Of a DNA stretch of 64,000 bases, positions 1,446 to 51,819 are shown piece after piece; the stretch's first letter is position 1; every line of letters starts with the position of its first letter. The notes under the pieces were generated by a model. It was not told the origin of the DNA, searched no databases, and saw nothing but the letters and a program-made list of their open reading frames with translations. The position numbers were made by a program, and so were the translations under genes. Source of the stretch: Chondrosia reniformis (lineage: Eukaryota; Porifera; Demospongiae; Chondrillida; Chondrillidae); contig OX359197.1 in NCBI GenBank assembly GCA_947172415.1, positions 1,550,001 through 1,614,000 of the forward strand, given 5' to 3'.

Positions 1446-3191
1446 CTACTGCACATACACAGTTGCAAATGCAATGATAGCTATCAATAATGAGAGAGAG
1501 CTAGAGATTCCCAGAGCACCACATTTTGGTGGAGGATTAGCATTAGCATCTGCAGAATCAAATTCTTTACTGCAACAAGAAGAGTCTATAGTTGAACTCT
1601 GCAAGATAAGATTGCTTTTGTCAAAGCATATTTCCGATTGAAAAGAATCTCTTTGTGTGTTACAAATGTTGGGTACAGATCCATGGTTAGGGCAAGTCCA
1701 ACTTGAACTAACGCTGCATTGCGTCACTGCATTACTCTCGCAAACACTGTCTTCACTTCCACTACTCCTCCGAATGGCATCCAGGAAGCACTCTGAAACA
1801 TTTCTTATGATGGGGCAAGTTACCTGACGTGACAGATAGAGAATGGTGTTCTGCCAGTTAGTTTCATCTGCATTGCGAAGGTCAGTTGTCAGAATATCCA
1901 CCGATACAACTCCATAGAGTCTAGGAGGGTCAACATTAGTGTCGTAAAGGGCTCTGGAAACAGTAGTCACTTCACCAAGACCAAATGCATCAATGTATGG
2001 CTCAACCCAGACCGGCTGAAGATTGTCAGACACTTGACGTACAGTGGCAAAGTAATTATAATAATTACTCATAGCATCTCGAAGGTTTCCATTGTCATTT
2101 ACATGAATAAAGATACCTTTGTTACCACAAGCAATAGCCTTTGGAATAGCTGCTGGGGCATTAGATCCAAGAGTAAAGGTGAAAATGACTGCCGACTCAG
2201 TGTTCAAATTTGATACTAAATTCTGCAGCTTATCAGCATCAGTTTCTCCAGCAGTTGGCATTCCGTCGGTAAGAAAGAGTAGTGCGGTCTGGCAGCTGGA
2301 AGCCAGTTCTTGACTCTGGCTACGAGTTAGTAAATCGAATGCTTCTCTGAAAGCTGCTTCATAGTTGGTGGGTCCACGTGCAGTTATCCCGTCAATGGCG
2401 GAGTTAACATTTAAAAGATTAGCCGAGCTAGCTGGTACCAGTGTTGTGGTATATAGTGTAGAAGCGGCATCCGAAAATATAACCACTCCGACGTAATCAA
2501 AATTTGTTAGAGTATCGATAACTGTTTTTGCGGCATCCTTTGCTAGTTCCAAACGTCCAAAATCTCTCATAGACCCACTGACATCGATCACAAGTACGAC
2601 ATTTTTGGGACCACTGGTGGCTGCCACGTACCAAGGACGAATACGGGGATCGTACGAGGCGCAAATCTCTTGTGCATCGCCTGGGTAACCTCTGAAGTAA
2701 CCGCTGGGCGTTCCGATATATTGCCATCGCAAAGTTATCGTCTCAAGACTGACGCTTAATTCATTTTTGAAAGCGCCTTCCAGATTTCTAGTCCAATGAT
2801 TGTCTGTTGTTTCATCTTGACCTGTAACGCCGGTGGGATTATTTGAAGGGAGGCGAATCGCAGAGTTGTCAAAGTCTAATCTTCTTGTTGAGCATTCGTG
2901 CGTGCACTGTCCTCGGAATGTGGTTATTACTGGTTTTCCGAACTGGGTAGTAGCCCTTCCACCTTCCAAGCGGTTTTGACAAGCGGCCTGACTACAGGGA
3001 ACTCCATTCACAGAGCCACTACAGCGATCTGCGTAGTCGGCCGCGGCAGCATCGGCTAATCTATTAACGATGTCAACGTTTGAATCGATGAGCGTCAGAA
3101 CGTCATCGTTTGGAGTTCCTTGTCCGGAGGAATAAGAAATTAGCCCCACAGTAATCTCGAGAAAAATAAAGAGCAAAACTTTAAATTTCAT
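1446..3191 (-). CDS. VWA1: secreted GPI-type VWA/Cache protein (alpha2delta-like)
   Basis: Single-exon gene, 581 aa from the Met of MKFKVLLFIFLE. An in-frame Met lies 21 codons upstream, but that leader is not conserved between copies. Layout: signal peptide 1-23; Cys-rich VWA_N-like region ~25-190 with the alpha2delta/CACHD1-type motifs WQYIGTPSGYFRGYPG and DPRIRPWYVAA; VWA domain ~197-380 with a complete MIDAS (D203-x-S205-x-S207, T275, D309); Cache-like segment ~385-460 (VWVEPYIDAFG, RLYGVVSVDI); Cys-rich stalk ~475-557; hydrophobic C-terminal tail 562-580, typical of a GPI signal. It is about half the length of a calcium-channel alpha2delta subunit. Expected at the outer cell surface, binding a ligand through a metal ion. 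Cassettes: 'FKNEL' block, LYTTT loop, SKEFD stalk. Channel association is not shown; adhesion or recognition is equally possible. Confidence 0.9.
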   Translation of the reverse strand: MKFKVLLFIFLEITVGLISYSSGQGTPNDDVLTLIDSNVDIVNRLADAAAADYADRCSGSVNGVPCSQAACQNRLEGGRATTQFGKPVITTFRGQCTHECSTRRLDFDNSAIRLPSNNPTGVTGQDETTDNHWTRNLEGAFKNELSVSLETITLRWQYIGTPSGYFRGYPGDAQEICASYDPRIRPWYVAATSGPKNVVLVIDVSGSMRDFGRLELAKDAAKTVIDTLTNFDYVGVVIFSDAASTLYTTTLVPASSANLLNVNSAIDGITARGPTNYEAAFREAFDLLTRSQSQELASSCQTALLFLTDGMPTAGETDADKLQNLVSNLNTESAVIFTFTLGSNAPAAIPKAIACGNKGIFIHVNDNGNLRDAMSNYYNYFATVRQVSDNLQPVWVEPYIDAFGLGEVTTVSRALYDTNVDPPRLYGVVSVDILTTDLRNADETNWQNTILYLSRQVTCPIIRNVSECFLDAIRRSSGSEDSVCESNAVTQCSVSSSWTCPNHGSVPNICNTQRDSFQSEICFDKSNLILQSSTIDSSCCSKEFDSADANANPPPKCGALGISSSLSLLIAIIAFATVYVQ

Positions 3192-8577: not shown

Positions 8578-10494
8578 CTACTGCACATACACAGTTGCAA
8601 ATGCAATGATAGCTATCAATAATGAGAGAGAGCTAGAGATTCCCAGAGCACCACATTTTGTTGGAGGATTAGCATTAACATCTGTAGGATCAAATTCATC
8701 ACTGCAACAAGAAGAGTTTACAGTGGAACTCTGATTACCACATTTTGTTGGAGGATTAGCATTAACATCTGTAGGATCAAATTCATCACTGCAACAAGAA
8801 GAGTTTACAGTGGAACTCTGATTACCACATTTTGTTGGAGGAATAGCATTAACATCTGCAGGATCAAATTCATCACTGCAACAAGAAGAGTTTATAGTCG
8901 AACTCTGCAAGATAAGATTGCTTTTGTCAAAGCATATTTCTGATTGAAAAGAATCTCTTTCTGTGTTACAAATGTTGGGTACAGATCCATGGTTAGGGCA
9001 AGTCCAACTTGAACTAACGTTGCATTTCGTCATTGCATTACTCTCGCAAACACTGGCTTCACTTCCACTACTCCTCCGAATGGCATCCAGGAAGCACTCT
9101 GAAACATTTCTAATGATGGGGCAAGTTACCTGACGTGACAGATAGAGAATGGTGTTCTGCCAGTTAGTTTCATCTGCATTGCGAAGGTCAGTTGTCAGGA
9201 TATCCACCGATACAACTCCATAGAGTCTAGGAGGGTCAACATTAGTGTCATAAAGGGCTCTGGAAACAGTAGTCACTTCACCGAGACCAAATGCATCAAT
9301 GTATGGCTCAACCCAAACCGGCTTAAGATTGTCAGACACTTGACGCACAGTGGCAAAGTAATTATAATAATTACTCATAGCATCTCGAAGGTTTCCATTG
9401 TCATTTACATGAATAAAGATACCTTTGTTACCACAAGCAATAGCCTTTGGAACAGCTGCTGGGGCATTAGATCCAAGAGTAAAGGTGAAAATGACTGCCG
9501 ACTCAGTGTTCAAGCTTGATACTAAATTCTGCAGATTATTAGCATTAGTTTCTCCAGCAGTTGGCATTCCGTCGGTAAGAAAGAGTAGTGCAGTCTGGCA
9601 GTCGGAAGCCAGTTCTTGACTCTGGCTACGATCTAGTAAATCGAATGCTTTTCTGAAAGCTGCTTCATAGTTGGTGGTTCCACGCGCAGTTATCCCGTTA
9701 ATGGCGGAGTTAAGACTTCTTATGTTAGCTGAAGTAGCTGGTAATAGAGTATTCTCCAGTGAAGAAGCGGTATTCGAAAATATAACCACTCCGACGTAAT
9801 CAAAATTTGTTAAAGTATCGATAACTGTTTTCGCGGCATCCTTTGCTAGTTCCAAACGTCCAAAATCGTTCATAGACCCGCTGACATCGATCACAAGTAT
9901 GACATTTTTGGGACCACTGGTGGCTGCCACGTACCAAGGACGAATACGGGGATCGTACGAGGCGCAAATCTCTTGTGCATCGCCTGGGTAACCTCTGAAG
10001 TAACCGCTTGGCGTTCCGATATATTGCCATCGCAAAGTTATCGTCTCAAGACTGACGCTTAATTCATTTTTGAAAGCGCCTTCCAGATTTCTAGTCCAAT
10101 GATTGTCTGTTGTTTCATCTTGACCTGTAACGCCTGTGGGATTATTTGAAGGGAGGCGAATCGCAGACTTGTCAAAGTCTAATCTTCTTGTTGAGCATTC
10201 GTGCGTGCACTGTCCTCGGAATGTGGTTATTACTGGTTTTCCGAACTGGGTAGTAGCCCTTCCACCTTCCAAGCGGTTTTGACAAGCGGCCTGACTACAG
10301 GGAACTCCATTCACAGAGCCACTACAGCGATCTGCGTAGTCGGCCGCGGCAGCATCGGCTAATCTATTAATGATGTCAACGTTTGAATCGATGAGCGTCA
10401 GAACGTCATCGTTTGGAGTTCCTTGTCCGGAGGAATAAGAAATTAGTCCCATAGTAATCTCGAGAAAAATAAACAGCAAAACTTTAAATTTCAT
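8578..10494 (-). CDS. VWA2: VWA/Cache protein with triplicated Cys-rich stalk
   Basis: Single exon, 638 aa from MKFKVLLFIFLE, the longest copy. Signal peptide, VWA_N, VWA with intact MIDAS (DVSGS, a Thr in ARGTTN, LTDG), Cache-like part and GPI-type tail as in VWA1. The extra length is three direct copies of a 29-residue stalk module (NQSSTVNSSCCSDEFD... ending KCG), encoded by 87-bp repeats at 8651-8911. Each module brings a CC pair, another Cys and an N-S-S glycosylation site. VWA cassettes: 'FKNEL' block, GSMNDFG, and the shorter 'SLENTLLPATSANIRS' loop shared with VWA8. The triplication lengthens the spacer between head and membrane; effect inferred. Confidence 0.9.
   Translation of the reverse strand: MKFKVLLFIFLEITMGLISYSSGQGTPNDDVLTLIDSNVDIINRLADAAAADYADRCSGSVNGVPCSQAACQNRLEGGRATTQFGKPVITTFRGQCTHECSTRRLDFDKSAIRLPSNNPTGVTGQDETTDNHWTRNLEGAFKNELSVSLETITLRWQYIGTPSGYFRGYPGDAQEICASYDPRIRPWYVAATSGPKNVILVIDVSGSMNDFGRLELAKDAAKTVIDTLTNFDYVGVVIFSNTASSLENTLLPATSANIRSLNSAINGITARGTTNYEAAFRKAFDLLDRSQSQELASDCQTALLFLTDGMPTAGETNANNLQNLVSSLNTESAVIFTFTLGSNAPAAVPKAIACGNKGIFIHVNDNGNLRDAMSNYYNYFATVRQVSDNLKPVWVEPYIDAFGLGEVTTVSRALYDTNVDPPRLYGVVSVDILTTDLRNADETNWQNTILYLSRQVTCPIIRNVSECFLDAIRRSSGSEASVCESNAMTKCNVSSSWTCPNHGSVPNICNTERDSFQSEICFDKSNLILQSSTINSSCCSDEFDPADVNAIPPTKCGNQSSTVNSSCCSDEFDPTDVNANPPTKCGNQSSTVNSSCCSDEFDPTDVNANPPTKCGALGISSSLSLLIAIIAFATVYVQ
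8651..8911. repeat. Three in-frame 87-bp tandem repeats in VWA2
   Basis: Units start at 8651, 8738 and 8825 (CCACATTTTG each). Units one and two are almost identical, and the third (5'-most in the gene) differs at several bases, so the expansion is recent. All other VWA copies have one unit. Confidence 0.95.
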
Positions 10495-11265: not shown

Positions 11266-12168
<903 letters not shown>

Positions 12169-15614: not shown

Positions 15615-17360
15615 CTACTGCACATACAAAGCTGTAAATGCTATGCTTGCTATCAATAATGAGAAAGAGCTAGAGATTCCCAGAGCACCACATTTTGGTG
15701 GAGGATTAGCATTAACATCTGTAGGATCAAATTCATCACTGCAACAAGAAGAGTCTATGGAAGATTTCTGCAAGATAATATTGCTTTTGTCAAAGCAAAG
15801 CTCAGCTTCATAGGAATCTCTTTGTGTGTTACAAATGTTGGGTACAGATCCATGGTTAGGGCAAGTCCAACTTGAACTAACGTTGCATTGCATCATTGCA
15901 TTACTCTCGCAAACACTGACTTCGCTTCCACTACTCTTTCGAATGGCATCCAGGAAGCATTCTGAAACATTCCTAATGATGGGGCAAGTTACCTGACGTG
16001 ACAGATAGAGAATGGTGTTCTGCCAGTTAGTTTCATCTGCATTGCGAAGGTCAGTTGTCAGAATATCCACTGATACAACTCCATAGAGTCTAGGAGGGTC
16101 AACATTAGTGTCGTAAAGGGCTCTGGAAACAGTAGTCACTTCACCAAGACCAAATGCATCAATGTATGGCTCAACCCAAACCGGCTTAAGATTGTCAGAC
16201 ACTTGACGCACAGTGGCAAAGTAATTATAATAATTACTCATAGCATCTCGAAGGTTTCCATTGTCATTTACATGAATAAAGATACCTTTGTTACCACAAG
16301 CAATAGCCTTTGGAATAGCTGCTGGGGCATTAGATCCAAGAGTAAAGGTGAAAATGACTGCCGACTCAGTATTTAAGCTTGATACTAAATTCTGCAGATT
16401 ATTAGCATTAGTTTCTCCAGCAGTTGGCATTCCGTCGGTAAGAAAGAGTATCGCAGTCTGGCAGCTGGAAGCCCGTTCTTGATCCTGGCTACGAGTTAGC
16501 AAATCGAATGCTTCTCTGAAAGCTGCTTCATAGTTGGTGGTTCCACGCGCAGTTATCCCGTTAATGGCGGAGTTAAGATTTAAAAGATTAGCCGAGCTAG
16601 CTGGTACCATTGTTGTGGTATATAGTGTAGAAGCGGTATCCGAAAATATAACCACTCCGACGTAATCAAAATTTGTTAGAGTATCGATAACTGTTTTTGC
16701 GGCATCCTTTGCTAGTTCCAAACGTCCAAAATCGTTCATAGACCCGCTGACATCGATCACAAGTATGACATTTTTGGGACCACTGGTGGCTGCCACGTAC
16801 CAAGGACGAATACGGGGATCGTACGAGGCGCAAGTCTCTTGTGCATCGCCTGGGTAACCTCTGAAAAGGCCGCTGGGCGTTCCGATATATTGCCATCGCA
16901 AAGTTATGGTCTCAATACTGTTACCTAATTGACTTCTGAAATCTTCATCCAGATTTCTAGTCCAGTGATTGTCTGTTGTTTCATCTTGACCTGTAACGCC
17001 TGTGGGATTATTTGAAGGGAGGCGAATCGCAGACTTGTCAAAGTCTAATCTTCTTGTTGAGCATTCGTGCGTGCACTGTCCTCGGAATGTGGTTATTACT
17101 GGTCTTCCGAACTGGGTAGTAGCCCTTCCACCTTCCAAGCGGTTTTGACAAGCGGCCTGACTACAGGGAACTCCATTCACAGAGCCACTACAGCGATCTG
17201 CGTAGTCGGCCACGGCAGCATCGGCTAATCTATTAACGATGTCAACGTTTGAATCGATGAGCGTCAGAACGTCATCGTTTGGTGTTCCTTGTCCGGAAGA
17301 ATAAGAAATTAATCCAACAGTAATCTCGAGAAAAATAAAGAGCAAAACTTTAGATTTCAT
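15615..17360 (-). CDS. VWA3: VWA/Cache protein, 'FRSQL' cassette type
   Basis: Single exon, 581 aa from MKSKVLLFIFLE. Same domain order as VWA1 with intact MIDAS residues. It carries the alternative pre-VWA block (DEDFRSQLGNSIE, PSGLFRG, QETC) shared with VWA6 and VWA8, GSMNDFG at the MIDAS, the longer LYTTT loop, SQDQERASS as in VWA6, and the stalk RDSYEAELC shared with VWA8. The last residues (IASIAFTALYVQ) keep a hydrophobic GPI-type tail. Its 3' flank also groups with VWA8. Confidence 0.9.
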   Translation of the reverse strand: MKSKVLLFIFLEITVGLISYSSGQGTPNDDVLTLIDSNVDIVNRLADAAVADYADRCSGSVNGVPCSQAACQNRLEGGRATTQFGRPVITTFRGQCTHECSTRRLDFDKSAIRLPSNNPTGVTGQDETTDNHWTRNLDEDFRSQLGNSIETITLRWQYIGTPSGLFRGYPGDAQETCASYDPRIRPWYVAATSGPKNVILVIDVSGSMNDFGRLELAKDAAKTVIDTLTNFDYVGVVIFSDTASTLYTTTMVPASSANLLNLNSAINGITARGTTNYEAAFREAFDLLTRSQDQERASSCQTAILFLTDGMPTAGETNANNLQNLVSSLNTESAVIFTFTLGSNAPAAIPKAIACGNKGIFIHVNDNGNLRDAMSNYYNYFATVRQVSDNLKPVWVEPYIDAFGLGEVTTVSRALYDTNVDPPRLYGVVSVDILTTDLRNADETNWQNTILYLSRQVTCPIIRNVSECFLDAIRKSSGSEVSVCESNAMMQCNVSSSWTCPNHGSVPNICNTQRDSYEAELCFDKSNIILQKSSIDSSCCSDEFDPTDVNANPPPKCGALGISSSFSLLIASIAFTALYVQ

Positions 17361-35291: not shown

Positions 35292-37099
35292 ATGGCTGAA
35301 CTTCCAGAGATTCTAGTTCTTCTTTTTCCATCAACTAATCTCAGGTGGATTGTCAGGAGAAGATGCTCCAACATGGAGTGTCCTGTGAGATCTGTGAAGA
35401 AGTGTTCTCCGTCCCTCCCGGTGGTCTTCCGAGCCATCCCTTTGCTCTGAGGAAGGCAGTGAGCAGTCAGTATCAGAAGGAAGGAATAGTATGTCAAGAG
35501 GACCACGAAGAGAAGGGAGCAGCTGTGAGCTACTGCACAGACTGTGATTTCCTTATTTGCCAAGAGTGTGTAGATCTTCACAGATCAAAAAATGCTTAAG
35601 AGACTTCAAATCTAATCAATTAATGAAACCTTAGAAGCTAGTCTCCAACAGCAGTCCACTGATGCTGTAGAAGACATTCTTGTAATGAAGGAACAGCTAA
35701 TTGCCATGGTAACTAGAAGATGTGATAGTCTTGTTGGTGAAGTCTGGAAAACAGAAAAAAAGGGAAGAATATCTCATGGTAAGCAGAAAAAGTGCTTCAA
35801 GGTAAAATAATGAAATGGGTGGAGTTTCTTTCCCTTTCAGAAGACATCTTTTCAAATGGAAAAAGAGAAGAACAGCTGTACTTGACCAAGGTGGTGGTTA
35901 AACGAGTGTATGAACTTATTGAACAGACTCCTCAGTCATCTTGCTACATTCACCCATCTGTCCAGTTTATCTCTTCCAAGCAATCCAAAACAGAAAAGAC
36001 ATTGTCTTCACTTGTTAAAGGGTTGAAGACTTAAGAACAATAAGAGTGCAGCTGCCTTTGTTCAGATACAGAAGAAGAAACAATGTTCCTTTAAAGTCAC
36101 CACAAAAAGATGAGAGAGACAATGAGTGTGGAAGAGGAGAAAAAGTGTTGGCTGCAGGTGTTCTTTAGAGAGGTAAGGTAACAGACAAGAGAGATGGTAC
36201 ATATGAGGTACACTTTAAGAGTGTTCCATCACTCGAGTGTATGCTGAGTGTGACCATCAGAGGTCACCACGTAGCAGGCAGTCCAGTAGAGGTGAAGGTT
36301 GCTAAGACATTGGATATTAAGAAGAACATCCAAAGGAAGATTAAGATTGGAGGAGCATGCTATGCAGTGGCTTGTGAATCAGATGGAATGTTGTATGCCG
36401 CAAATCACACTAAAGAAATCCTAGTTATTCAGGGCAGGTCAAATGACAAGAAGATTTAACAATAATTTGTGACCAATGTGATGACTCTATGTAATAACTT
36501 GCAGCAAATCTGGTAATGTTGTCATTTGTGACTATAGCAATCATGTTATCAAATTCTACACTCCATGCAATTGGTCAGCTAGTAAGTCTGTTTAGAGGTC
36601 AAGGTTCAAAGCAAGGTCAATTAAGCAATCCTACAGGAGTGGCAGTCAATGGGGAGGGACACCTTTTTATAGCAGAACATTATAATCACAAGATATCTGT
36701 ATTTACAGAGGATGGTCAGTTCCTAAGGTTCTTTGGTTCACGTGGCAATGGAGCAGGCCACTTTGAATTCCCTGGTAGCTCTGTATATCATCAGATGGAT
36801 TAGTGTACATCACTGAAAGTCATTGCATCAAAGTACATGATCAGGATGGACGGTACATCCAAAAGTTTGGTGAAGGCATTGACAAGCACCCTACTGGTAT
36901 AGCAGCCACAAGTAATGGACACAAAAGAGTTACATCATCAAGTTATACTAACAAAATCTCCATCTTCACACCAGATGGACAGTGTGTTGGTGACGTTAAT
37001 AATAATCTTGGGTTGTCTCATCCTCATAGTCTTGCTATCAGTGAAGAAGGAAACATATATATTGCTGACAGTGAAAACAAGAGAATTGTTGTACTCTGA
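35292..37099 (+). pseudogene. TRIM-like B-box/filamin/NHL pseudogene B
   Basis: Copy of pseudogene A with the same N-terminal deletion, frameshifts and stops, plus a few private changes (stop within QI*SI at about 35610; a 3-base gain near 36050; C-to-F in LRFFGS at about 36730). B-box, coiled-coil, filamin-like and NHL parts are recognisable in separate frames. Confidence 0.8.
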
Positions 37100-39039
37100 C
37101 CCCCATTGTAAAGACATGTGCTTTATAGATTACTGCTACATTTTCGCTCAAACCTTGATTTTTTGAAAGACCACACTTCAATATATGTGATTCGGAGAGT
37201 GAGAGTAGGATAAAATTGAAAAAAAATGCATGAAGGAGGGGTGAAATCTCGGACACTGACAACAAAATTTTTTCATCGATCACGATATGATTAACTAGTT
37301 CATTTTGTCTTAAAGAAAGAGTACAAAATTAACTTAATCACAATTGATTAGAATTTCTACCTAAATACATAGATAGTTTGAGAGCAGTTGATTTTACAGC
37401 TTATTCAATAATTGACTTATTCTTGTCCGATCTTTCTTTCGCATCGGATTAATTCAAACATCTATATTACAAATAGTCTATATGGAAAATGGCCAACTCA
37501 GTAAGGTTGAAGTTATTGTTTGTTAACCCTCCTCCTGCATGCTTGTCCACAGTAAGTTTGGTTTCTCGTGAATCAGACATCCTGCTCCGTCTATGCTGAT
37601 CTGTGTGGCACCCTCAAGAGGTTCTTTGTGGTGTACCTCATAATGTGAGCATTGCCCCCTCAAGAAGACATTCATCTGCTAAAGGATAATGACAAAATTC
37701 GGTATGCTGATCCATATTTCATGCGACAATAGGCAGTGCTATATATTCTGTGTTGTATTATATATACCTATTACTGACATTATAGATATACTTTCTAATG
37801 TAAGTTATGTAGTCACGGAATATACCACAACTGATGTACACTAAACGTGTCTTAAGGACTAATACTGTAGATCCACAATTGCTTCGAATTCTCTTGTGTT
37901 TTTCCCTCTTCATGATGTTTGACTGATTATAATTACTTGTGGTTTGATTATCAAAATAGTACATGTTTTGCTTTTTCACAGTTGCTTCTCTTGTGTTTTT
38001 CCCTCTTCATGATGTTTGAGAACAACTTCGTGATTGATTATCAGTTTCAATTGATTATTCGATCATAGATTTACCCAGCTCTATTATGGTTGATGCTGCC
38101 CATTAACTAATTGGTAAGATGGCCCCTCCCACTGGAAATGGGCTGGTTCTCTGCCTATATCAGCTTGCTGTGATGCATGGAGTCACCCCTAACCAGTGTG
38201 AATGGCAAATTAAATATTTATCTACTTTTCACTAGCTCAGTGGTAGAGCACTGGTAGTCGAAAAATTTGAAAATGATTACTTGTGGCCATATTACTTTGA
38301 CTCAATTTTTTGTCTACATATAACAAATAAACAGGGCAGTTGGTTATGACCTCCAGTGTTCTGCCACTGAGCTACAAATGCCACAGCAATGCTCCCTTCA
38401 TATTTTCCTCTTATACTTACTAAAATAGTCAATTAGTTGCTATTCACACTGATACCAGGGTTAAATTTGGTAGAGAAAAGATTAACCTTAAAATGGCAGA
38501 AGAGGAAACAACCCATAAGCTTCCTGAATTAATGTATGAAACCCCGTCATTTGCAAAACATTAAATAGTGTGTGATACTTAAGTGTGGACACTTATTAGT
38601 ATCTATAAAATGAGTACTAGTGTAACAACTGGAATAGGGGCTAAATTATGAAAGCATTGGGAAGTATGTATTGGTTGGCTGGAAATACACTGGTGGTCAT
38701 ACCCAACTAGTTCACTGTGTGTATATATGTATACATCAAAATTATGCAGATCTCTATACACTTTATCTATAGTTTCACTACAAATACGAAACACAGATAC
38801 ATATTATAAATGCTGAAATATAGTAATAAACGTGACTATAAATGGATTAAGAGCAATACCATCAATATGTTTCACATATGCTGCAGTCTACGGTCATATA
38901 CGTCACTTAAATGAAATAGATTCTAAATTTTAATAAAACATATGCTATAAAGGAGGACTCTTTATGGGTGACCTTATATTAGGGTAAACAATTAAGGTAA
39001 ACAGTTTGTATTATTACACACACACACAGCATGCAGAAT
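37100..39039. other. Intergenic; mosaic 3' flank of VWA6
   Basis: Up to about 38885 it matches the flank of VWA5 and VWA7. The last ~150 bases (from GTCATATACGTCACTTAAAT) switch to the flank type of VWA3 and VWA8. No gene. Confidence 0.6.
38231..38382. repeat. Inverted pair of tRNA-like fragments (unit 5/6)
   Basis: Same arrangement as at 30230-30384, with A-boxes in opposite orientation. Confidence 0.5.
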
Positions 39040-40785
39040 CTACTGCACATACAAAACTGTAAATGCAATGATTGCTATCAATAAGAAGAGAGAGCTAGAG
39101 ATTCCCAGAGCACCACATTTTGGTGGAGGATTAGCATTAACATCTCCAGAATCAAATTCATCACTGCAACAAGAAGAGTCTATGGAAGACTTCTGCAAGA
39201 TAAGATTGCTTTTGTCAAAGCATATTTCTGATTGAAAAGAATCTCTTCGTGTGTTACAAATGTTGGGTACAGATCCATGGTTAGGGCAAGTCCAACTTGA
39301 ACTAACGTTGCATTGCGTCACTGCATTATTCTCGCAAACACTGGCTTCACTTCCACTACTCTTTCGAATGGCATCCAGGAAGCACTCTGAAACATTTCTA
39401 ATGATGGGGCAAGTTACCTGACGTGACAGATAGAGAATGGTGTTCTGCCAGTTAGTTTCATCTGCATTGCGAAGGTCAGTTGTCAGAATATCCACCGATA
39501 CAACTCCATAGAGTCTAGGAGGGTCAACATTAGTGTCGTAAAGGGCTCTGGAAACAGTAGTCACTTCACCAAGACCAAATGCATCAATGTATGGCTCAAC
39601 CCAAACCGGCTCAAGATTGTCAGACACTTGACGCACAGTGGCAAAGTAATTATAATAATTACTCATAGCATCTCGAAGGTTTCCATTGTCATTTACATGA
39701 ATAAAGATACCTTTGTTACCACAAGCAATAGCCTTTGGAATAGCTGCTGGGGCATTAGATCCAAGAGTAAAGGTGAAAATGACTGCCGACTCAGTGTTCA
39801 AGCTTGATACTAAATTCTGCAGATTATTAGCATCACTTTCTCCAGCAGTTGGCATTCCGTCGGTAAGAAAGAGTAGTGCGGTCTGGCAGCTGGAAGCCCG
39901 TTCTTGATCCTGGCTACGAGTTAGCAAATCGAATGCTTCTCTGAAAGCTGCTTCATAGTTGGTGGTTCCACGCGCAGTTATACCGTCAATGGCGGAGCTA
40001 AGACTTCTTATGTTAGCTGAAGTAGCTGGTACCATTGTTGTGGTATATAGTGTAGAAGCGGTATCCGAAAATATAACCACTCCGACGTAATCAAAATTTG
40101 TTAGAGTATCGATAACTGTTTTTGCGGCATCCTTTGCTAGTTCCAAACGTCCAAAATCGTTCATAGACCCGCTGACATCGATCACAAGTATGACATTTTT
40201 GGGACCACTGGTGGCTGCCACGTACCAAGGACGAATACGGGGATCGTACGAGGCGCAAGTCTCTTGTGCATCGCCTGGGTAACCTCTGAAAAGGCCGCTG
40301 GGCGTTCCGATATATTGCCATCGCAAAGTTATGGTCTCAATACTGTTACCTAATTGACTTCTGAAATCTTCATCCAGATTTCTAGTCCAGTGATTGTCTG
40401 TTGTTTCATCTTGACCTGTAACGCCTGTGGGATTATTTGAAGGGAGGCGAATCGCAGACTTGTCAAAGTCTAATCTTCTTGTTGAGCATTCGTGCGTGCA
40501 CTGTCCTCGGAATGTGGTTATTACTGGTTTTCCGAACTGGGTAGTAGCCCTTCCACCTTCCAAGCGGTTTTGACAAGCGGCCTGACTACAGGGAACTCCA
40601 TTCACAGAGCCACTACAGCGATCTGCGTAGTCGGCCACGGCAGCATCGGCTAATCTATTAACGATGTCAACGTTGGAATCGATGAGCGTCAGAACGTCAT
40701 CGTTTGGTGTTCCTTGTCCGGAGGAATAAGAAAATAGTCCAACAGTAATCTCGAGAAAAATAAAGAGCAAAACTTTAAATTTCAT
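39040..40785 (-). CDS. VWA6: VWA/Cache protein, mosaic loop
   Basis: Single exon, 581 aa from MKFKVLLFIFLE. MIDAS intact (DVSGS, ARGTTN, LTDG). It has the FRSQL pre-VWA block of VWA3/8 and GSMNDFG. Its loop starts like VWA3 (LYTTTMVPA) and ends like VWA2/8 (TSANIRSLSS), which places a conversion breakpoint inside the loop. GESDANN is shared with VWA7. The stalk is RDSFQSEIC...SDEFDSGDV, the VWA7 type, with a GPI-type tail ending TVLYVQ. The 3' flank is also mosaic. Confidence 0.9.
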   Translation of the reverse strand: MKFKVLLFIFLEITVGLFSYSSGQGTPNDDVLTLIDSNVDIVNRLADAAVADYADRCSGSVNGVPCSQAACQNRLEGGRATTQFGKPVITTFRGQCTHECSTRRLDFDKSAIRLPSNNPTGVTGQDETTDNHWTRNLDEDFRSQLGNSIETITLRWQYIGTPSGLFRGYPGDAQETCASYDPRIRPWYVAATSGPKNVILVIDVSGSMNDFGRLELAKDAAKTVIDTLTNFDYVGVVIFSDTASTLYTTTMVPATSANIRSLSSAIDGITARGTTNYEAAFREAFDLLTRSQDQERASSCQTALLFLTDGMPTAGESDANNLQNLVSSLNTESAVIFTFTLGSNAPAAIPKAIACGNKGIFIHVNDNGNLRDAMSNYYNYFATVRQVSDNLEPVWVEPYIDAFGLGEVTTVSRALYDTNVDPPRLYGVVSVDILTTDLRNADETNWQNTILYLSRQVTCPIIRNVSECFLDAIRKSSGSEASVCENNAVTQCNVSSSWTCPNHGSVPNICNTRRDSFQSEICFDKSNLILQKSSIDSSCCSDEFDSGDVNANPPPKCGALGISSSLFLLIAIIAFTVLYVQ

Positions 40786-42913
40786 GATTATATACACTGC
40801 ATGCAGCTGAAATGAACAAATCGCCAAAATAGAGCAACTATATAATTTAGCTTTATATTTATATATCCAATTATACTATTAGCTAGTCTATATAATAGTG
40901 TATATCACTCGTGTTATTGCAATGCCAATGTCATACCAGTTATATACCTAGGCAACATTATATAATATTTACACTAACTATGATTGCACCACAAATACTC
41001 AACATTCTGTTATTAATCACACATTTCTACTATACAATATATGGTTAGTCATAATACTAATTGAATTGATCGAATAGCTATGTACAGTTGTTATATAGGT
41101 CAGTGGGGGGATTAGCTCCTTTGTGTAAAGCGATCCTATAGTGAGTACCACTTTGAAATTTTGACATTCCAGGATCACCATGTGAACCTGAATCCACTAT
41201 TTATATGAATGTTGAAGGTTACTGACCTTTTATCAATCATCAATGGCCTCTTCATGTCATAGCATGTGTTAGATACATAGTCCTAATATAAATTGATCAT
41301 GATATATAGACTTAAGGCCATACTACAGGCAGATACAATACATACAGTGATGTATATAGGAAGATGTTTTTGTCAGGGGGCTGTGCAACCCGTGTACAGT
41401 ATAGTTCTTGTTAACAGAATGTTTCTCCTAGAGTCCTCTTTTGGGGATCAAAGAAGCAGGGTCCATAGGAACACAAATCCTAACGTACGTACAACAGTAC
41501 AGTGTAAATGCTAATATACTATGTGCTTGTCCAAGAAGGAAAGTATTATATATATAGCAATGTTAGAGTAAAATAAATGGATAACACCACAAACACTCCC
41601 ACCCCTACATTTAGAAAGAGGAAGCAGACACATAAATAATTCAAATTTCCATACATAGATGTGAAAAATCTAATATATATACCATTTTCCTACATGCTAT
41701 ACCTATGCTGCAAAAAAGTCTACAAGGGAACTAAACCCGAAGAGAGCTTAATTTGGATGAAGATACAGGAGTCTTTTCTTTCTTCTTTCATCTTCTTCTC
41801 CACTGGGGCAGACAGCTGTTTCTGGGAATTCCACCTTTCATCAATGATCCTGGGAGTCTTTGTCTTTTTCTTTATTTTGATCTTCTGTGAATCCTATGTA
41901 TCCCATGTATATTACTCTGAAGGTTATATTGTGAAGGTTATACCATGCAGGTTGTACACATACACAACTTTTACAAAGAACACTAGGCTAAGCATGACTA
42001 TAGGGTGAAGAAGAGATGTGGTGACTACTAAACAAAATTGCATGTGTCTTGATAATCAGCTTGTCCTGATAAAGAGAATCACCACTAATTAGTGAATGAA
42101 GACTAATTACTGGCTTGTAGAGAGAAAGCATGAGGTAGGCATTGCTGTGGCAATTATAGTAGCTCGAGTAGTGGCAGATCAACTGGCCATGGTAGCTGTC
42201 CTGAGTTCAATTTCCAATTCTCGCATATTTTTCCCTATTTATGATGGTGGTTTGATTATCACTTCGGTTATTCATAAGACTTGAAGAACAGGAAATCTGA
42301 AAATTGACATTATCAAATAAAGGATATAATTATATACATATACATACACATATAGGAACCAAAAAGACCATCACTGCAATTAGTACGTACTGTTTCTAAT
42401 TTCCAAAATCATTATACTACATGTTTTGTTAATTGCTTCTTTTGTGTTTTTACCTCTTCATGATATTTGAGAATAATTATGTGTGGTTCATTATCATGCA
42501 GTTTAAATCGATCATTCCATCATAGATATACCCAGCTCTAAGGAGGCTGATGGTGCCCAGTGACTAATTAGTAAAAATAATGTGAAGGACTTCTGCGTGG
42601 CTAGGTTCTTGCATATCGGTACGATCGAGGGAACCACACTAACGTTTGGAATCTATTCTAAGTTGATTTTGGCTAGTGTGGTTCCCTCGATCGTACCGAT
42701 AGTAAAAATAACTTGAAGTTGAAAACACCAAACTTGAACTAATTCAGTGAATGTCCTAGATACTGAAATTATTTATTGTACAACCCACATAGGCACATGT
42801 ATGTTCCATCACTATAATACTCATGTGTAGACATAGTGAATAGTTTGATATATGTATCTAGCTCCGGTCCTCCCAAATTTCTAATTCAGATGATCCCAAC
42901 ATTACCAAATAAA
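40786..42913. other. 5' flank of unit 6, no gene
   Basis: Homologous to 25303-27288. The proximal part (to about 41150) matches VWA3's flank and the distal part matches units 4 and 5. It contains the hairpin insertion at 42580-42700. Confidence 0.6.
42570..42710. mobile_element. 121-bp hairpin insertion with 10-bp target duplication (unit 6)
   Basis: The insert at 42580-42700 is flanked by AGTAAAAATA on both sides; units 4 and 5 have this once. It holds a perfect 27-bp inverted repeat (42615-42641 and 42674-42700; starts ATCGGTACGATCGAGGGAAC) around a 32-base loop, plus 35 bases on the left outside the stem. The stem-loop has pre-miRNA-like proportions, but the target duplication makes transposition the simpler reading. 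Confidence 0.85.
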
Positions 42914-44718
42914 ATGGCTGAACTTCCAGAGATTCTAGTTCTTCTTTTTCCATCAACTAATCTCAGGTGGATTGTCAGGAGAAGATGCTCCAACATGGAG
43001 TGTCCTGTGAGATCTGTGAAGAAGTGTTCTCCGTCCCTCCCGGTGGTCTTCCGAGCCATCCCTTTGCTCTGAGGAAGGCAGTGAGCAGTCAGTATCAGAA
43101 GGAAGGAGTAGTATGTCAAGAGGACCACGAAGAGAAGGGAGCAGCTGTGAGCTACTGCACAGACTGTGATTTCCTTATTTGCCAAGAGTGTGTAGATCTT
43201 CACAGATCAAAAAATGCTTAAGAGACTTCAAATCCAATCAATTAATGAAACCTTAGAAGCTAGTCTCCAACAGCAGTCCACTGATGCTGTAGAAGACATT
43301 CTTGTAATGAAGGAACAGCTAATTGCCATGGTAACTAGAAGATGTGATAGTCTTGTTGGTGAAGTCTGGAAAACGGAAAAAAAGGGAAGAATATCTCATG
43401 GTAAGCAGAAAAAGTGCTTCAAGGTAAAATAATAAAATTGGTGGAGTTTCTTTCCCTTTCAGAAGACATCTTTTCAAATGGAAAAAGAGAAGAACAGCTG
43501 TACCTGACCAAGGTGGTGGTTAAACGAGTGTATGAACTTATTACAGACTCCTCAGTCATCTTGCTACATTCACCCATCTGTCCAGTTTATCTCTTCCAAG
43601 CAATCCAAAACAGAAAAGACATTGTCTTCACTTGTTAAAGGGTTGAAGACTTAAGAACAATAAGAGTGCTGCCTTTGTTCAGATACAGAAGAAGAAACAA
43701 TTTTCCTTTAAAGTCACCACAAAAAGATGAGAGAGACAATGAGTGTGGAAGAGGAGAAAAAGTGTTGGCTGCAGGTGTTCTTTAGAGAGGTATAAGGTAA
43801 CAGACAAGAGAGATGGTACATATGAGGTACACTTTAAGAGTGTTCCATCACTCGAGTGTATGCTGAGTGTGACCATCGGAGGTCACCACTTAGAAGGCAG
43901 TCCAGTAGAGGTGAAGGTTGCTAAGACATTGGATATTAAGAAGAACATCCAAAGGAAGATTAAGATTGGAGGAGCATGCTATGCAGTGGCTTGTGAATCA
44001 GATGGAATGTTGTATGCCGCAAATCACACTAAAGAAATCCTAGTTATTCAGGGCAGGTCAAATGACAAGAAGATTTAACAATAATTTGTGACCAATGTGA
44101 TGACTCTATGTGATAACTTGCAGCAAATCTGGTAATGTTGTCATTTGTGACTATAGCAATCATGTTATCAAAATCTACACTCCATGCAATTGGTCAGCTA
44201 GTAAGTCTGTTTAGAGGTCAAGGTTCAAAGCAAGGTCAATTAAGCAATCCTACAGGAGTGGCAGTCAATGGGGAGGGACACCTTTTTATAGCAGAACATT
44301 ATTATCACAAGATATCTGTATTTACAGAGGATGGTCAGTTCCTAAGGTGCTTTGGTTCACGTGGCAATGGAGCAGGCCACTTTGAATTCCCTGGTAGCTC
44401 TGTATATCACCAGATGGATTAGTGTACATCACTGAAAGTCATTGCATCAAAGTACATGATCAGGATGGACGGTACATCCAAAAGTTTGGTGAAGGCATTG
44501 ACAAGCACCCTACTGGTATAGCAGCCACAAGTAATGGACACAAAAGAGTTACATCATCAAGTTATACTAACAAAATCTCCATCTTCACACCAGATGGACA
44601 GTGTGTTGGTGACTTTAATAATAATCTTGGGTTGTCTCATCCTCATAGTCTTGCTATCAGTGAAGAAGGAAACATATATATTGCTGACAGTGAAAACAAG
44701 AGAATTGTTGTACTCTGA
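42914..44718 (+). pseudogene. TRIM-like B-box/filamin/NHL pseudogene C
   Basis: Third long copy with the same breaks as A and B. Private changes include loss of EQ in YELIEQTPQ (about 43540), which shifts the frame again, and loss of a stop so that the filamin-like part reads from 43743 (KVTDKRDGTYEVHFKSVPSL). Confidence 0.8.
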
Positions 44719-46516
44719 CCCCCGGCCCATTGTAAAGACATGTGCTTTATAGATTACTGCGCGTGCTAGATTTTTCGCTCAAACCTTGATTTTTTGAAAG
44801 ACCACACTTCAATATATGTAATTCGGAGAGTGAGAGTAGGATAAAATTGAAAAAAATGCATGAAGGAGGGGTGAAATCTCGGACACTGACAACAAAATTT
44901 TTTCATCGATCACGATATGATTAACTAGTTCATTTTGTCTTAAAGAAAGAGTACAAAATTAACTTAATCACAATTGATTAGAATTTCTACCTAAATACAT
45001 AGATAGTTTGAGAGCAGTTGATTTTACAGCTTATTCAATAATTGACTTATTCTTGTCCGATCTTTCTTTCGCATCGGATTAATTCAAACATCTATATTAC
45101 AAATAGTCTATATGGAAAATGGCCAACTCAGTAAGGTTGAAGTTATTGTTTGTTAACCCTCCTCCTGCATGCTTGTCCACAGTAAGTTTGGTTTCTCGTG
45201 AATCAGACATCCTGCTCTGTCTATGCTGATCTGTGTGGCACCCTCAAGAGGTTCTTTGAAGATCTGTGTGGTGTACGTCACACATGTGAGCATTGCTCCT
45301 TCAAGAAGACATTCATCTGCTAAAGGATAATGACACAATTCGGTATGCTGATCCATATTTCATGCGACAATAGGCAGTGCTATATATTCTGTGTTGTATT
45401 ATATATACCTATCACTGACATTATAGATATACTTTCTAATGTATGTTATGTAGTCACGGAATATACCACAACTAATGTACACTAAACGTGTCTTAAGGAC
45501 TAATACTGTAGATCCACAATTGCTTCGAATTCTCTTGTGTTTTTCCCTCTTCATGATGTTTGACTGATTATAATTACTTGTGGTTTGATTATCAAAATAG
45601 TACATGTTTTGCTTTTTCACAGTTGCTTCTCTTGTGTTTTTCCCTCTTCATGATGTTTGAGAACAACTTCGTGATTGATTATCAGTTTCAATCGATTATT
45701 CGATCATAGATTTACCCAGCTCTATTGTATTTGATGCTGCCCATTAACTAATTGGTAAGATGGCCCCTCCCACTGGAAATGGGCTGGTTCTCTGCCTATA
45801 TCAGCTTGCTGTGATGCATGGAGTCACCCCTAACCAGTGTGAATGGCAAATTAAATATTTATCTACTTTTAGCTAGCTCAGTGGTAGAGCACTGGTAGTC
45901 GAAAAATTTGAGAAAAATTACTTGTGGCCATATTACTTCGACTCAATTTTTAGTCTACGTATAACAAATAAACAGGACAGTTGGTTATGACCTCCAGTGT
46001 TCTGCCACTGAGCTACAAATGCCACAGCAATGCTCCCTTCATATTTTCCTCTTATTAGTCTTACTAAAATAGACAATTAGTTGCTATTCACACTGATACC
46101 AGGGTTAAATTTGGTAGAGAAAAGATTAACCTTAAAATGGCAGAAAAGGGAACAACCCATAAGCTTCCTGAATTAACATATGAAACCCCGTCATTTGCAA
46201 AACATTAAATAGTGTGTGATACTTAAGTGTGGACACTTATTAGTATCTATAAAATGAGTACTAGTGTAACAACTGGAATAGGGGCTAAATTATGAAAGCA
46301 TTGGGAAGTATGTATTGGTTGGCTGGAAATACACTGGTGGTCATACCCAACTAGTTCACTGTATGTATATATGTATACATCAAAATTATGCAGATCTCTA
46401 TACACTTTGTCTATAGTTTCACTACAAATATATATGAAACACAGATACATATTATAAATGCTGAAATATAGTAATAAACGTGACTATAAATGGATTAAGA
46501 GCACACATGCTGCAGT
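44719..46516. other. Intergenic between TRIM pseudogene C and VWA7
   Basis: Third copy of the 29091-30876 type. No gene. Holds the tRNA-like pair at 45870-46022. Confidence 0.6.
45870..46022. repeat. Inverted pair of tRNA-like fragments (unit 6/7)
   Basis: Same arrangement as at 30230-30384. Confidence 0.5.
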
Positions 46517-48256
46517 CTACTGCACATACACAGTTGCAAATGCAATGATTGCTATCAATAAGAAGAGAGAGCTAGAGATTCCCAGAGCACCACATTTTGT
46601 TGGAGGATTAGCATTAATATCTCCAGAATCAAATTCATCACTGCAACAAGAAGAGTCTATGGAAGACTTCTGCAAGATAAGATTGCTTTTGTCAAAGCAT
46701 ATTTCTGATTGAAAAGAATCTCTTCGTGTGTTACAAATGTTGGGTACAGATCCATGGTTAGGGCAAGTCCAACTTGAACTAACGTTGCATTGCGTCACTG
46801 CATTACTCTCGCAAACACTGGCTTCACTTCCGCTACTCTTTCGAATGACATCCAGGAAGCACTCTGAAACATTTCTTATGATGGGGCAAGTTACTTGACG
46901 TGACAGATAGAGAATGGTGTTTTGCCAGTTAGTTTCATCTGCATTGCGAAGGTCAGTTGTCAGGATATCCACCGATACAACTCCATAGAGTCTAGGAGGG
47001 TCAACATTAGTGTCGTAAAGGGCTCTGGAAACAGTAGTCACTTCACCAAGACCAAATGCATCAATGTATGGCTCAACCCAAACCGGCTTAAGATTGTCAG
47101 ACACTTGACGCACAGTGGCAAAGTAATTATAATAATTACTCATAGCATCTCGAAGGTTTCCATTGTCATTTACATGAATAAAGATACCTTTGTTACCACA
47201 AGCAATAGCCTTTGGAATAGCTGCTGGGGCATTAGATCCAAGAGTAAAGGTGAAAATGACTGCCGACTCAGTGTTCAAGCTTGATACTAAATTCTGCAGA
47301 TTATTAGCATCACTTTCTCCAGCAGTTGGCATTCCGTCGGTAAGAAAGAGTATCGCAGTCTGGCAGCTGGAAGCCAGTTCTTGACTCTGGCTTCGAGTTA
47401 GTAAATCGAATGCTTCTGTGAAAGCTGCTTCATAGTTGGTGGTTCCACGCGCAGTTATACCGTCAATGGCGGAGTTAAGATTTAAAAGATTAGCCGAGCT
47501 AGCTGGTACCATTGTGGTGGTATATAGTGTAGAAGCGGTATCCGAAAATATAACCACTCCGACGTAATCAAAATTTGTTAGAGTATCGATAACTGTTTTT
47601 GCGGCATCCTTTGCTAGTTCCAAACGTCCAAAATCTCTCATAGACCCGCTGACATCGATCACAAGTATGACATTTTTGGGACCACTGGTGGCTGCCACGT
47701 ACCAAGGACGAATACGGGGATCGTACGAGGCGCAAGTCTCTTGTGCATCGCCTGGGTAACCTCTGAAGTAACCGCTGGGCGTTCCGATATATTGCCATCG
47801 CAAAGTTATCGTCTCAAGACTGACGCTTAGTTCATTTTTGAAAGCGCCTTCCAGATTTCTAGTCCAATGATTGTCTGTTGTTTCATCTTGACCTGTAACG
47901 CCTGTGGGATTATTTGAAGGGAGGCGAATCGCAGACTTGTCAAAGTCTAATCTTCTTGTTGAGCATTCGTGCGTGCACTGTCCTCGGAATGTGGTTATTA
48001 CTGGTTTTCCGAACTGGGTAGTAGCCCTTCCACCTTCCAAGCGGTTTTGACAAGCGGCCTGACTACAGGGAACTCCATTCACAGAGCCACTACAGCGATC
48101 TGCGTAGTCGGCCGCGGCAGCATCGGCTAATCTATTAACGATGTCAACGTTTGAATCAATGAGCGTCAGAACGTCATCGTTTGGTGTTCCTTGTCCGGAG
48201 GAATAAGAAATTAGCCCCACAGTAACCGCGAAAATAAGGGACAGCAAAGTTTTCAT
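46517..48256 (-). CDS. VWA7: VWA/Cache protein with a different signal peptide
   Basis: Single exon, 579 aa. It starts MKTLLSLIFAVTVGL, unlike the MKFKV type of VWA1-6. From VGLISYSSGQG on it is the common protein: FKNEL block but QETC, GSMRDFG, LYTTT loop, ARGTTN, intact MIDAS, AAFTEAF (Thr where others have Arg), DVIRK (Val for Ala), stalk SDEFDSGDI, GPI-type tail. The upstream DNA is unrelated to that of VWA1-6 but matches the two stumps at 5478 and 19884, so a second promoter/signal-peptide type exists in the array. Confidence 0.9.
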   Translation of the reverse strand: MKTLLSLIFAVTVGLISYSSGQGTPNDDVLTLIDSNVDIVNRLADAAAADYADRCSGSVNGVPCSQAACQNRLEGGRATTQFGKPVITTFRGQCTHECSTRRLDFDKSAIRLPSNNPTGVTGQDETTDNHWTRNLEGAFKNELSVSLETITLRWQYIGTPSGYFRGYPGDAQETCASYDPRIRPWYVAATSGPKNVILVIDVSGSMRDFGRLELAKDAAKTVIDTLTNFDYVGVVIFSDTASTLYTTTMVPASSANLLNLNSAIDGITARGTTNYEAAFTEAFDLLTRSQSQELASSCQTAILFLTDGMPTAGESDANNLQNLVSSLNTESAVIFTFTLGSNAPAAIPKAIACGNKGIFIHVNDNGNLRDAMSNYYNYFATVRQVSDNLKPVWVEPYIDAFGLGEVTTVSRALYDTNVDPPRLYGVVSVDILTTDLRNADETNWQNTILYLSRQVTCPIIRNVSECFLDVIRKSSGSEASVCESNAVTQCNVSSSWTCPNHGSVPNICNTRRDSFQSEICFDKSNLILQKSSIDSSCCSDEFDSGDINANPPTKCGALGISSSLFLLIAIIAFATVYVQ

Positions 48257-50079: not shown

Positions 50080-51819
50080 CTACTGCACATACAAAGCTGT
50101 AAATGCAATGATTGCTATCAATAATGAGAGAGAGCTGGAGATTCCCAGAGCACCACATTTTGTTGGAGGATTAGCATTAACATCTGCAGGATCAAATTCA
50201 TCACTGCAACAAGAAGAGTCTATGGAAGACTTCTGCAAGATAAGATTGCTTTTGTCAAAGCAAAGCTCAGCTTCATAGGAATCTCTTTGTGTGTTACAAA
50301 TGTTGGGTACAGATCCATGGTTAGGGCAAGTCCAACTTGAACTAACGCTGCATTGCGTCACTGCATTACTCTCGCAAACACTGGCTTCACTTCCACTACT
50401 CTTTCGAATGGCATCCAGGAAGCACTCTGAAACATTCCTAATGATGGGGCAAGTTACCTGACGTGACAGATAGAGAATAGTGTTTTGCCAGTTAGTTTCA
50501 TCTGCATTGCGAAGGTCAGTTGTCAGGATATCCACCGATACAACTCCATAGAGTCTAGGAGGGTCAACATTAGTGTCGTAAAGGGCTCTGGAAACAGTAG
50601 TCACTTCACCAAGACCAAATGCATCAATGTATGGCTCAACCCAAACTGGCTCAAGATTGTCAGACACTTGACGCACAGTGGCAAAGTAATTATAATAATT
50701 ACTCATAGCATCTCGAAGGTTTCCATTGTCATTTACATGAATAAAGATACCTTTGTTACCACAAGCAATAGCCTTTGGAATAGCTGCTGGGGCATCAGAT
50801 CCAAGAGTAAAGGTGAAAATGACTGCCGACTCAGTGTTCAAGTTTGATACTAAATTCTGCAGATTATTAGCATTAGTTTCTCCGTCAGTTGGCATTCCGT
50901 CGGTAAGAAAGAGTAGTGCAGTCTGGCAGTCGGAAGCCAGTTCTTGACTCTGGCTACGATCTAGTAAATCGAATGCTTTTCTGAAAGCTGCTTCATAGTT
51001 GGTGGGTCCACTCGCAGTTATACCGTCAATGTCGGAGCTAAGACTTCTTATGTTAGCTGAAGTAGCTGGTAATAGAGTATTCTCCAGTGTAGAAGCGGTA
51101 TCCGAAAATGTAACTACTCCGACGTAATCAAAATTTGTTAGAGTGTTTATAACTGTTTTTGCGGCATCCTTTGCTAGTTCCAAACGTCCACGACTTCTCA
51201 TAGAACCGCTGACATCGATCACAAGTATGACATTTTTGGGACCACTGGTGGCTGCCACGTACCAAGGACGAATACGGGGATCGTACGAGGCGCAAGTCTC
51301 TTGTGCATCGCCTGGGTAACCTCTGAAAAGGCCGCTGGGCGTTCCGATATATTGCCATCGCAAAGTTATGGTCTCAATACTGTTACCTAATTGACTTCTG
51401 AAATCTTCATCCAGATTTCTAGTCCAATGATTGTCTGTTGTTTCATCTTGACCTGTAACGCCTGTGGGATTATTTGAAGGGAGGCGAATCGCAGACTTGT
51501 CAAAGTCTAATCTTCTTGTTGAGCATTCGTGCGTGCACTGTCCTCGGAATGTGGTTATTACTGGTTTTCCGAACTGGGTAGTAGCCCTTCCACCTTCCAA
51601 GCGGTTTTGACAAGCGGCCTGACTACAGGGATCTCCATTCACAGAGCCACTACAGCGATCTGCGTAGTCGGCCACGGCAGCATCGGCTAATCTATTAACG
51701 ATGTCAACGTTGGAATCGATGAGCCTCAGGACGTCATCGTTTGGTGTTCCTTGTCCAGAGGAATAAGAAATTAGCCCCACAGTAATCTCGAAAAGAACTA
51801 ACTGAAAAATCCTTACCAT
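50080..51819 (-). CDS. VWA8: most divergent VWA/Cache copy, third 5' end
   Basis: Single exon, 579 aa from MVRIFQLVLFEITVGL; an in-frame Met 12 codons upstream is possible. FRSQL block with PSGLFRG and QETC. MIDAS intact, but its next residues are GSMRSRG instead of GSMRDFG/GSMNDFG. Other private changes: VINTLTN, VVTFS, SDIDGITASGPT, GMPTDGE, GSDAPAA, VNGDPC. Short loop SLENTLLPATSANIRS type as in VWA2, stalk RDSYEAELC as in VWA3, GPI-type tail. The signal-peptide region and upstream DNA are unlike both other types. The start ATGGTAAGG also looks like a splice donor, so an upstream exon is conceivable. Confidence 0.88.
   Translation of the reverse strand: MVRIFQLVLFEITVGLISYSSGQGTPNDDVLRLIDSNVDIVNRLADAAVADYADRCSGSVNGDPCSQAACQNRLEGGRATTQFGKPVITTFRGQCTHECSTRRLDFDKSAIRLPSNNPTGVTGQDETTDNHWTRNLDEDFRSQLGNSIETITLRWQYIGTPSGLFRGYPGDAQETCASYDPRIRPWYVAATSGPKNVILVIDVSGSMRSRGRLELAKDAAKTVINTLTNFDYVGVVTFSDTASTLENTLLPATSANIRSLSSDIDGITASGPTNYEAAFRKAFDLLDRSQSQELASDCQTALLFLTDGMPTDGETNANNLQNLVSNLNTESAVIFTFTLGSDAPAAIPKAIACGNKGIFIHVNDNGNLRDAMSNYYNYFATVRQVSDNLEPVWVEPYIDAFGLGEVTTVSRALYDTNVDPPRLYGVVSVDILTTDLRNADETNWQNTILYLSRQVTCPIIRNVSECFLDAIRKSSGSEASVCESNAVTQCSVSSSWTCPNHGSVPNICNTQRDSYEAELCFDKSNLILQKSSIDSSCCSDEFDPADVNANPPTKCGALGISSSLSLLIAIIAFTALYVQ

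Follow-up and report, generated by a model that had tools for sequence, protein, structure and literature searches.

The alpha2delta proteins of calcium channels are anchored in the membrane through glycosylphosphatidylinositol (GPI). Sponge aggregation factor genes are associated with adhesion at the sponge cell surface, and gene arrays of the allorecognition and major histocompatibility complex (MHC) type diversify by gene conversion. Within Metazoa, the core formed by a VWA domain and a Cache domain is found only in alpha2delta proteins and in CACHD1 (VWFA and cache domain-containing protein 1), according to the portion of a review on which we draw (PMC9901441). Sponges tell self from non-self grafts, which, in the excerpted text of PMC5450542, is read as a sign of a polymorphic genetic system behind this ability, and a title cited by that paper terms the main Microciona aggregation protein highly polymorphic. 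Here, we describe a tandem array of eight genes, V1 to V8, for alpha2delta-like VWA proteins in the demosponge Chondrosia reniformis, located in a window of 64,000 nucleotides (assembly GCA_947172415.1, contig OX359197.1, positions 1,550,001 to 1,614,000; G000:C9:1550001-1614000). The genes are mosaics of shared cassettes and, as the main new result, their genealogy is decoupled from that of their flanks. Like allorecognition and MHC-type arrays, the locus combines tandem paralogs, block mosaics and peaks of divergence in otherwise homogeneous sequence; unlike them, it encodes other protein folds and is known here from the sequence of one haplotype. Unlike the sponge aggregation factors, from which it is set apart by domain plan and not by sequence comparison, its proteins follow the plan of alpha2delta.

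The array occupies the minus strand from 1446 to 51819, and seven of its eight frames are intact from ATG to stop, with lengths of 579-638 amino acids. V1 (1446..3191), V3 (15615..17360), V4 (23557..25302) and V6 (39040..40785) each encode 581 residues; V2 (8578..10494) encodes 638 and is the only copy whose stalk carries an in-frame 87-bp repeat in three copies (8650-8907), which adds two extra 29-residue units bearing Cys and NxS/T. V7 (46517..48256) and V8 (50080..51819), of 579 residues each, have 5' ends of their own: the first codons of their signal peptides differ from those of the other copies, and nothing aligns directly upstream of the ATG. In V5 (about 30892..32640), the broken copy, codon 474 is a TGA (31219-31221) and the stop usual in the family is missing. 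The coding sequences of V1-V8 are 92.9-98.4% identical in pairwise nucleotide comparisons. Because each copy reads as one frame from the signal peptide through the tail, the genes appear to be intronless, and the frames thus bear out the first-pass annotation of this DNA, which had proposed an intronless array of eight copies, seven of them intact.

That annotation had also claimed that the copies differ in blocks that assort independently, and the blocks it named are real. An FRSQL block (FKNEL in the alternative type) is common to V3, V6 and V8, a SQDQER block (against SQSQEL) to V3 and V6, and a SYEAEL stalk to V3 and V8; the stalks fall into three types, namely V1 and V4 with V2 close to them, V3 and V8, and V5, V6 and V7. 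The loop described as shared by V2 and V8 is so only in part, as LENT is common to both but V8 reads TLENT where V2 reads SLENT. Across 107 biallelic informative sites, signal peptide excluded, the conflict between neighbouring sites is 0.24, shuffles give 0.49 and not one in 2000 of them is as low (p = 0.0005); the minimum number of recombination intervals (Rm) is 23. In approximately unbiased (AU) tests, taken at a threshold of 0.05 per test uncorrected for test number, 37 of 42 comparisons reject the tree of another segment when the segments are chosen after inspection of the blocks; when the grid is set blindly, as eight segments of equal length, 46 of 56 do so, and six of the eight segments reject the tree of the whole coding sequence. 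The conflict persists, with an Rm of 10, when only the 28 synonymous-codon sites are used. Independent assortment is thereby confirmed well beyond what shuffling produces, no single tree fits all segments, and these recombination tests support the exchange by gene conversion or unequal crossing-over that had been suggested; the mosaics very probably arose by the exchange of blocks among the copies.

V6 is the clearest chimera, with at least four changes of affinity in its coding sequence and one more in its 3' flank. Its cassette 1 is that of V3/V8 and the start of its loop that of V3 (and of V1, V4, V5 and V7); alignment columns 764-788 follow V2/V8, columns 861-887 follow V3 and the stalk follows V5/V7, after which the end of the coding sequence is again as in V3/V8, as are the initial 121-128 nt of the 3' flank that can be aligned, and the 3' flank then continues as in V5/V7. 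V5, though broken, shares blocks like the other copies.

The decoupling of genes from flanks is most readily seen around V4-V7, where the spacers V4/V5 (27089..30890), V5/V6 (35070..38885) and V6/V7 (42700..46510) contain, when read on the plus strand, decayed sequence resembling a TRIM-filamin-NHL gene. This assignment is based on Pfam Filamin and NHL matches to pieces of the third spacer (43743-44715) and on RING and B-box recognised by eye; the sequence was duplicated together with the array units, and its frames are broken in every copy. The three spacers diverge from one another by 1.28-1.60%. The adjoining genes diverge more: 4.25% in the coding sequence against 1.59% in the spacer for V5-V6 (Fisher p 1e-8), 4.14% against 1.51% for V6-V7 (p 8e-9) and 3.00% against 1.44% for V5-V7 (p 2e-4), while V4 and V5 differ at 42 of 1743 coding positions as against 5 of 1310 positions of the 5' flank (p 2e-6). 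In the cassettes, whose columns were chosen for this contrast after inspection, divergence amounts to 9.5% (V5-V6), 9.0% (V6-V7), 3.5% (V5-V7) and 4.2% (V4-V5); outside them it is still above that of the flank for V5-V6 (2.8%, p 0.008), V5-V7 (2.4%, p 0.03) and V4-V5 (2.4%, p 8e-6). Plain mutation after duplication does not easily produce such a contrast and, since the genes diverge more than their flanks, short-tract conversion has probably carried old variants into young copies. V1-V4 displays the opposite pattern, with 5.7% divergence in the 5' flank, 1.6% in the coding sequence and 1.3% in the 3' flank.

The 3' flanks belong to three classes that cannot be aligned with one another (V1, V2 and V4; V3 and V8; V5, V6 and V7, with the V3/V8-type patch of 121-128 nt in V6), and alignable 3' flank is present in nine of 28 pairs, two of them over only 121-128 nt. 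The existence of three such classes indicates that gene bodies were also brought next to different flanking sequences by exchange. Within 2 kb upstream of V7 and V8, the only similarities are a V3-V7 match of 217 nt (8.8%) and V8 matches of 34-36 nt.

From the N-terminus on, each protein has a signal peptide, then a portion corresponding to the first half of alpha2delta (a VWA domain within a split Cache domain), then a stalk rich in Cys and lastly a GPI-type tail. A profile built from six members aligns over its positions 28-441 to residues 83-500 of alpha2delta-1 (E 4.7e-47; V3 alone, E 3e-32), and all eight copies pass the Pfam cut-off for VWA. The MCP-like_PDC_1 model (cut-off 27) scores 19.3, 19.0 and 18.8 in the three window proteins scanned, 17.7 and 17.4 in both of the diverged relatives on chromosome 11 (C11), and 30.8, above the cut-off, in a third relative on C7; this last is also the only one with a dCache_1 match, which at 18.7 lies below the cut-off of 45. 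VWA_N (cut-off 34.7) reaches 23.1, 19.1 and 23.2 in the window proteins scanned and 24.1, 32.6 and 31.1 in the three relatives taken as proteins, one relative rising above this threshold, at 35.9, when the genome was searched. The Cache assignment is accordingly drawn from the alignment to alpha2delta, the Pfam Cache and VWA_N models staying below their cut-offs in all three window proteins scanned. VGCC_alpha2 (PF08473) is uninformative, having no match in this genome or in any control genome.

DVSGS (203-207), the T of TNY (275) and the D of TDG (309), which we take to be the pieces of a metal-ion-dependent adhesion site (MIDAS), are invariant among the array proteins. Of the triple-Arg of alpha2delta, the RIRPWY sequence holds the third Arg, together with the Trp and Tyr that follow, and R185, W187, Y188 and D432 are invariant in six aligned members. 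In the excerpted text of PMC9901441, this Arg, Trp and Tyr and a later Asp are parts of an amino-acid-binding motif; the first Tyr of the motif could not be located here at the spacing that the review gives. The homology to alpha2delta stops near position 441. At the C-terminus, all 11 family members (V5 read past its stop) have a hydrophobic 15-mer of hydropathy 2.13-2.95 followed by 0-3 residues, and no internal 19-mer of theirs exceeds 1.53. The profile alignment and the hydropathy thus support the earlier description of alpha2delta-like VWA proteins with GPI-type tails.

In common with alpha2delta, the array proteins have a first dCache split by a VWA domain whose MIDAS is complete, an RPWY motif and, by prediction, an extracellular, membrane-anchored location. 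Unlike alpha2delta, they contain the first half only, with the Cys-rich stalk in place of the second dCache and delta, and their genes are intronless, tandem and mosaic. They likewise share the Cache-VWA core with CACHD1 (profile E 1.1e-29) but end 0-3 residues past the hydrophobic stretch, by comparison with the longer transmembrane protein that CACHD1 is described to be in the cited part of PMC9901441.

Variation is concentrated in a few stretches of this plan. Among the seven intact proteins, with V5 excluded, gaps counted as a state and the V2 insertion uncounted, 101 positions of V1 are variable, 15 of them in the signal peptide, and at 57 the second state occurs in at least two proteins. 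Only 6 of 110 positions vary in amino acids 24-133, as against 11 of 43, all with shared alleles, in the cassette 1 region (134-176), where cassette 1 proper is 138-176, in the Cache half before the VWA domain (16833..16949 in V3, minus strand, as for all V3 coordinates here). The RPWY stretch (177-196) has 0 of 20, the VWA domain (197-373) 39 of 177, with 24 of 61 in the VWA cassettes (240-300; 16461..16643 in V3), and the second Cache half (374-470) 1 of 97. Variability is high again in the stalk (471-552; 22 of 82), which includes the stalk cassette (513-549; 15714..15824 in V3), and in the tail (553-581; 7 of 29). Variable residues 209-211 and 274 adjoin the MIDAS motifs in sequence. Mean rates by the Nei-Gojobori method (NG86) over 28 pairs, using codon-alignment columns and with V5 included but its stop codons skipped, give synonymous divergence (dS) of 0.18 in cassette 1, 0.24 in the VWA loop and 0.13 in the stalk, as against 0.04, 0.04 and 0.06 in the background (about amino acids 24-128, 167-238 and 301-470). 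This high dS implies that the cassette types are of greater age than the background, as would be the case where diversity is maintained in the face of homogenisation. The ratio of nonsynonymous to synonymous divergence (dN/dS) is 0.24, 0.52 and 0.20 in the three background stretches and exceeds 1 only in amino acids 264-300 (1.09) and in the tail (1.15).

The genome searched amounts to 117,379,552 bases in 15 contigs of one haplotype; its genome note, in the part cited, gives 117.37 Mb, 14 chromosomal pseudomolecules, a scaffold N50 of 8.46 Mb, a 17.45-kb mitochondrion and an alternate-haplotype assembly, GCA_947172445.1 (PMC12181767). COX1 on C15, a contig of 17,451 bases, translates into a protein of normal appearance under NCBI table 4. 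Protein searches started from V3 and from the C7 relative converge on an identical set of eleven genes, namely the eight of the array and three diverged relatives, of which two are on C11 (63% and 41% identity to V3) and the third is on C7 (39%); these counts are lower bounds, and within them the whole-genome search returned no array copies beyond V1-V8. Ten of the eleven genes are single open frames, V5 being the exception. The C11 relatives (L027) stand in opposite orientation with about 3 kb between them. Cassette 1 is nearer to a C11 relative in V3, V6 and V8 than in V1 and V2 at the DNA level, and than in the other copies in the protein alignment, the type found in V8 being the nearest, so that the FKNEL type is probably the derived one. 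Conversion between chromosomes was considered and rejected, third positions being only 13-59% identical to the C11 relative in the windows computed for V1, V2, V3, V6 and V8. No sequence outside the eight array copies matched a 651-nt stretch of V6 that covers cassette 1 and the VWA, which gives no sign of a cassette store elsewhere; this DNA search did not extend to the other cassettes. Weak VWA-only matches on C8 and C10 are taken to be other proteins, and a cluster of five VWA-domain matches (G000:C6:5758812-5779957) was not recovered by the V3 search.

A recent transfer from a prokaryote was likewise rejected, as no close relative was found among at least 47 loci. The best prokaryotic match among those listed is a Hodarchaeota metagenome-assembled genome (MAG), at 33% over positions 55-438, and most of the other listed matches are limited to a stretch of about 40 residues that surrounds RPWY. 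In the Candidatus Hodarchaeota MAG (L038:1006-4052), a Cache-VWA frame with an in-frame stop adjoins a plain dCache-like frame. The Hodarchaeota Cache-VWA frame hints that the alpha2delta core may be old.

The window contains several further elements: a 23-bp tandem repeat in 20 copies (5889-6358), an ATT microsatellite in 79 copies (11932-12168), and a plus-strand open frame of 260 codons (13387-14166) that looks gag-like by eye and has no Pfam match. Beyond the array, two tandem plus-strand frames (59611-60138 and 63069-63485) begin with weak fibrinogen-C-like matches (15.4 and 19.0 bits; cut-off 22), and the DNA surrounding them is 86% identical.

We propose, at a probability of roughly one half for the explanation as a whole, that these tandem demosponge genes for putative surface proteins act as a small common pool of sequence cassettes. 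Each protein would be a cut-down alpha2delta ectodomain in which a VWA domain with a complete MIDAS sits in a split Cache domain upon a Cys-rich stalk and a GPI-type anchor. Unequal crossing-over would yield the copies and short-tract gene conversion would shift old, diverged cassettes between them, and the outcome would be young duplicates that differ in a Cache stretch, the VWA domain and the stalk but are nearly identical in the remainder. A conserved scaffold with variable VWA, Cache and stalk would be best explained by selection for binding variety, presumably at the VWA face of proteins displayed at the cell surface, where cassette combinations may matter for recognition or adhesion between cells or between cells and microbes. 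Such a role in recognition or adhesion, judged from sequence, is a candidate with about even odds.

Several observations weigh against this explanation. The dN/dS ratio is below 1 in cassette 1 (0.45), the VWA loop (0.62) and the stalk (0.44), and positive selection is thus not demonstrated. Synonymous sites taken by themselves show weak clustering, not significant at 100 nt (p 0.27) but significant at 200 nt (p 0.010), and outside the cassettes V6-V7 diverge by 1.52%, with no excess over their spacer (p 1.0). The spacers may instead have been homogenised and the genes spared, which would give a similar contrast between genes and flanks, although either account needs conversion or repeated exchange. 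The GPI-type anchor is predicted from hydropathy alone, and the AlphaFold model (mean predicted local distance difference test score, pLDDT, of 33.8) is too poor for mapping the variable residues.

The most serious rival to a functional cassette pool is neutral concerted evolution, in which the cassettes are simply places that ordinary tandem turnover has not yet homogenised and their diversity has no function. The low dN/dS of the main cassettes is in keeping with it, as are the sharing of blocks by the broken V5 and the fact that exchange also homogenises, as between V1 and V4. It accounts less well for peaks of divergence, synonymous sites included, that are located in the VWA domain, one Cache stretch and the stalk of a near-invariant background, or for seven of eight frames still being open beside a decayed pseudogene, and we regard it as possible, though clearly the lesser prospect. 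A role as immune or symbiont receptors is unlikely: C. reniformis belongs to the sponges of high microbial abundance, and 53 binned bacterial genomes are given for it in the cited part of its genome note (PMC12181767), and the invariant Arg, Trp and Tyr of RPWY and the later Asp would suit the binding of microbial, perhaps amino-acid-like, ligands through the Cache pocket, but the invariance of the RPWY stretch and the near-invariance of the second Cache half argue that the pocket itself is not what varies. It is improbable that the genes encode alpha2delta-type accessory subunits of a sponge calcium channel, or of a channel-like partner, expanded in copy number; the homology to alpha2delta-1 spans the first Cache-VWA unit and the four VWA_N matches listed for the genome all belong to the array family, yet the second half of alpha2delta, including the second dCache and delta, is missing and eight mosaic copies would be unexpected for such a subunit. 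An assembly artefact, with alleles or repeats falsely strung together as tandem copies, is very improbable, for although the spacer divergence of 1.3-1.6% could be allelic in size and curation took four haplotypic duplications out of the assembly, this is a HiFi assembly treated with purge_dups at a quality value (QV) of 69.8 (both points from the cited part of PMC12181767), the window has no N, and eight copies with three unrelated classes of 3' flank cannot be two alleles.

No comparable VWA-Cache array was found among the listed titles and abstract openings from open-licence sponge literature, which is weak evidence of its absence from print. The array presents the VWA-Cache core leading a separate life as a short protein, anchored by prediction, and a compact surface-protein array with mixable cassettes would be a concrete and testable candidate for the sponge self/non-self system. 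Taken a step further, and as a distinctly long shot, the array may be a candidate histocompatibility locus, at which individual-specific cassette combinations of GPI-anchored receptors with an alpha2delta core would decide between fusion and rejection. If this were true, the fold of the calcium-channel alpha2delta proteins would be an ancient recognition fold.

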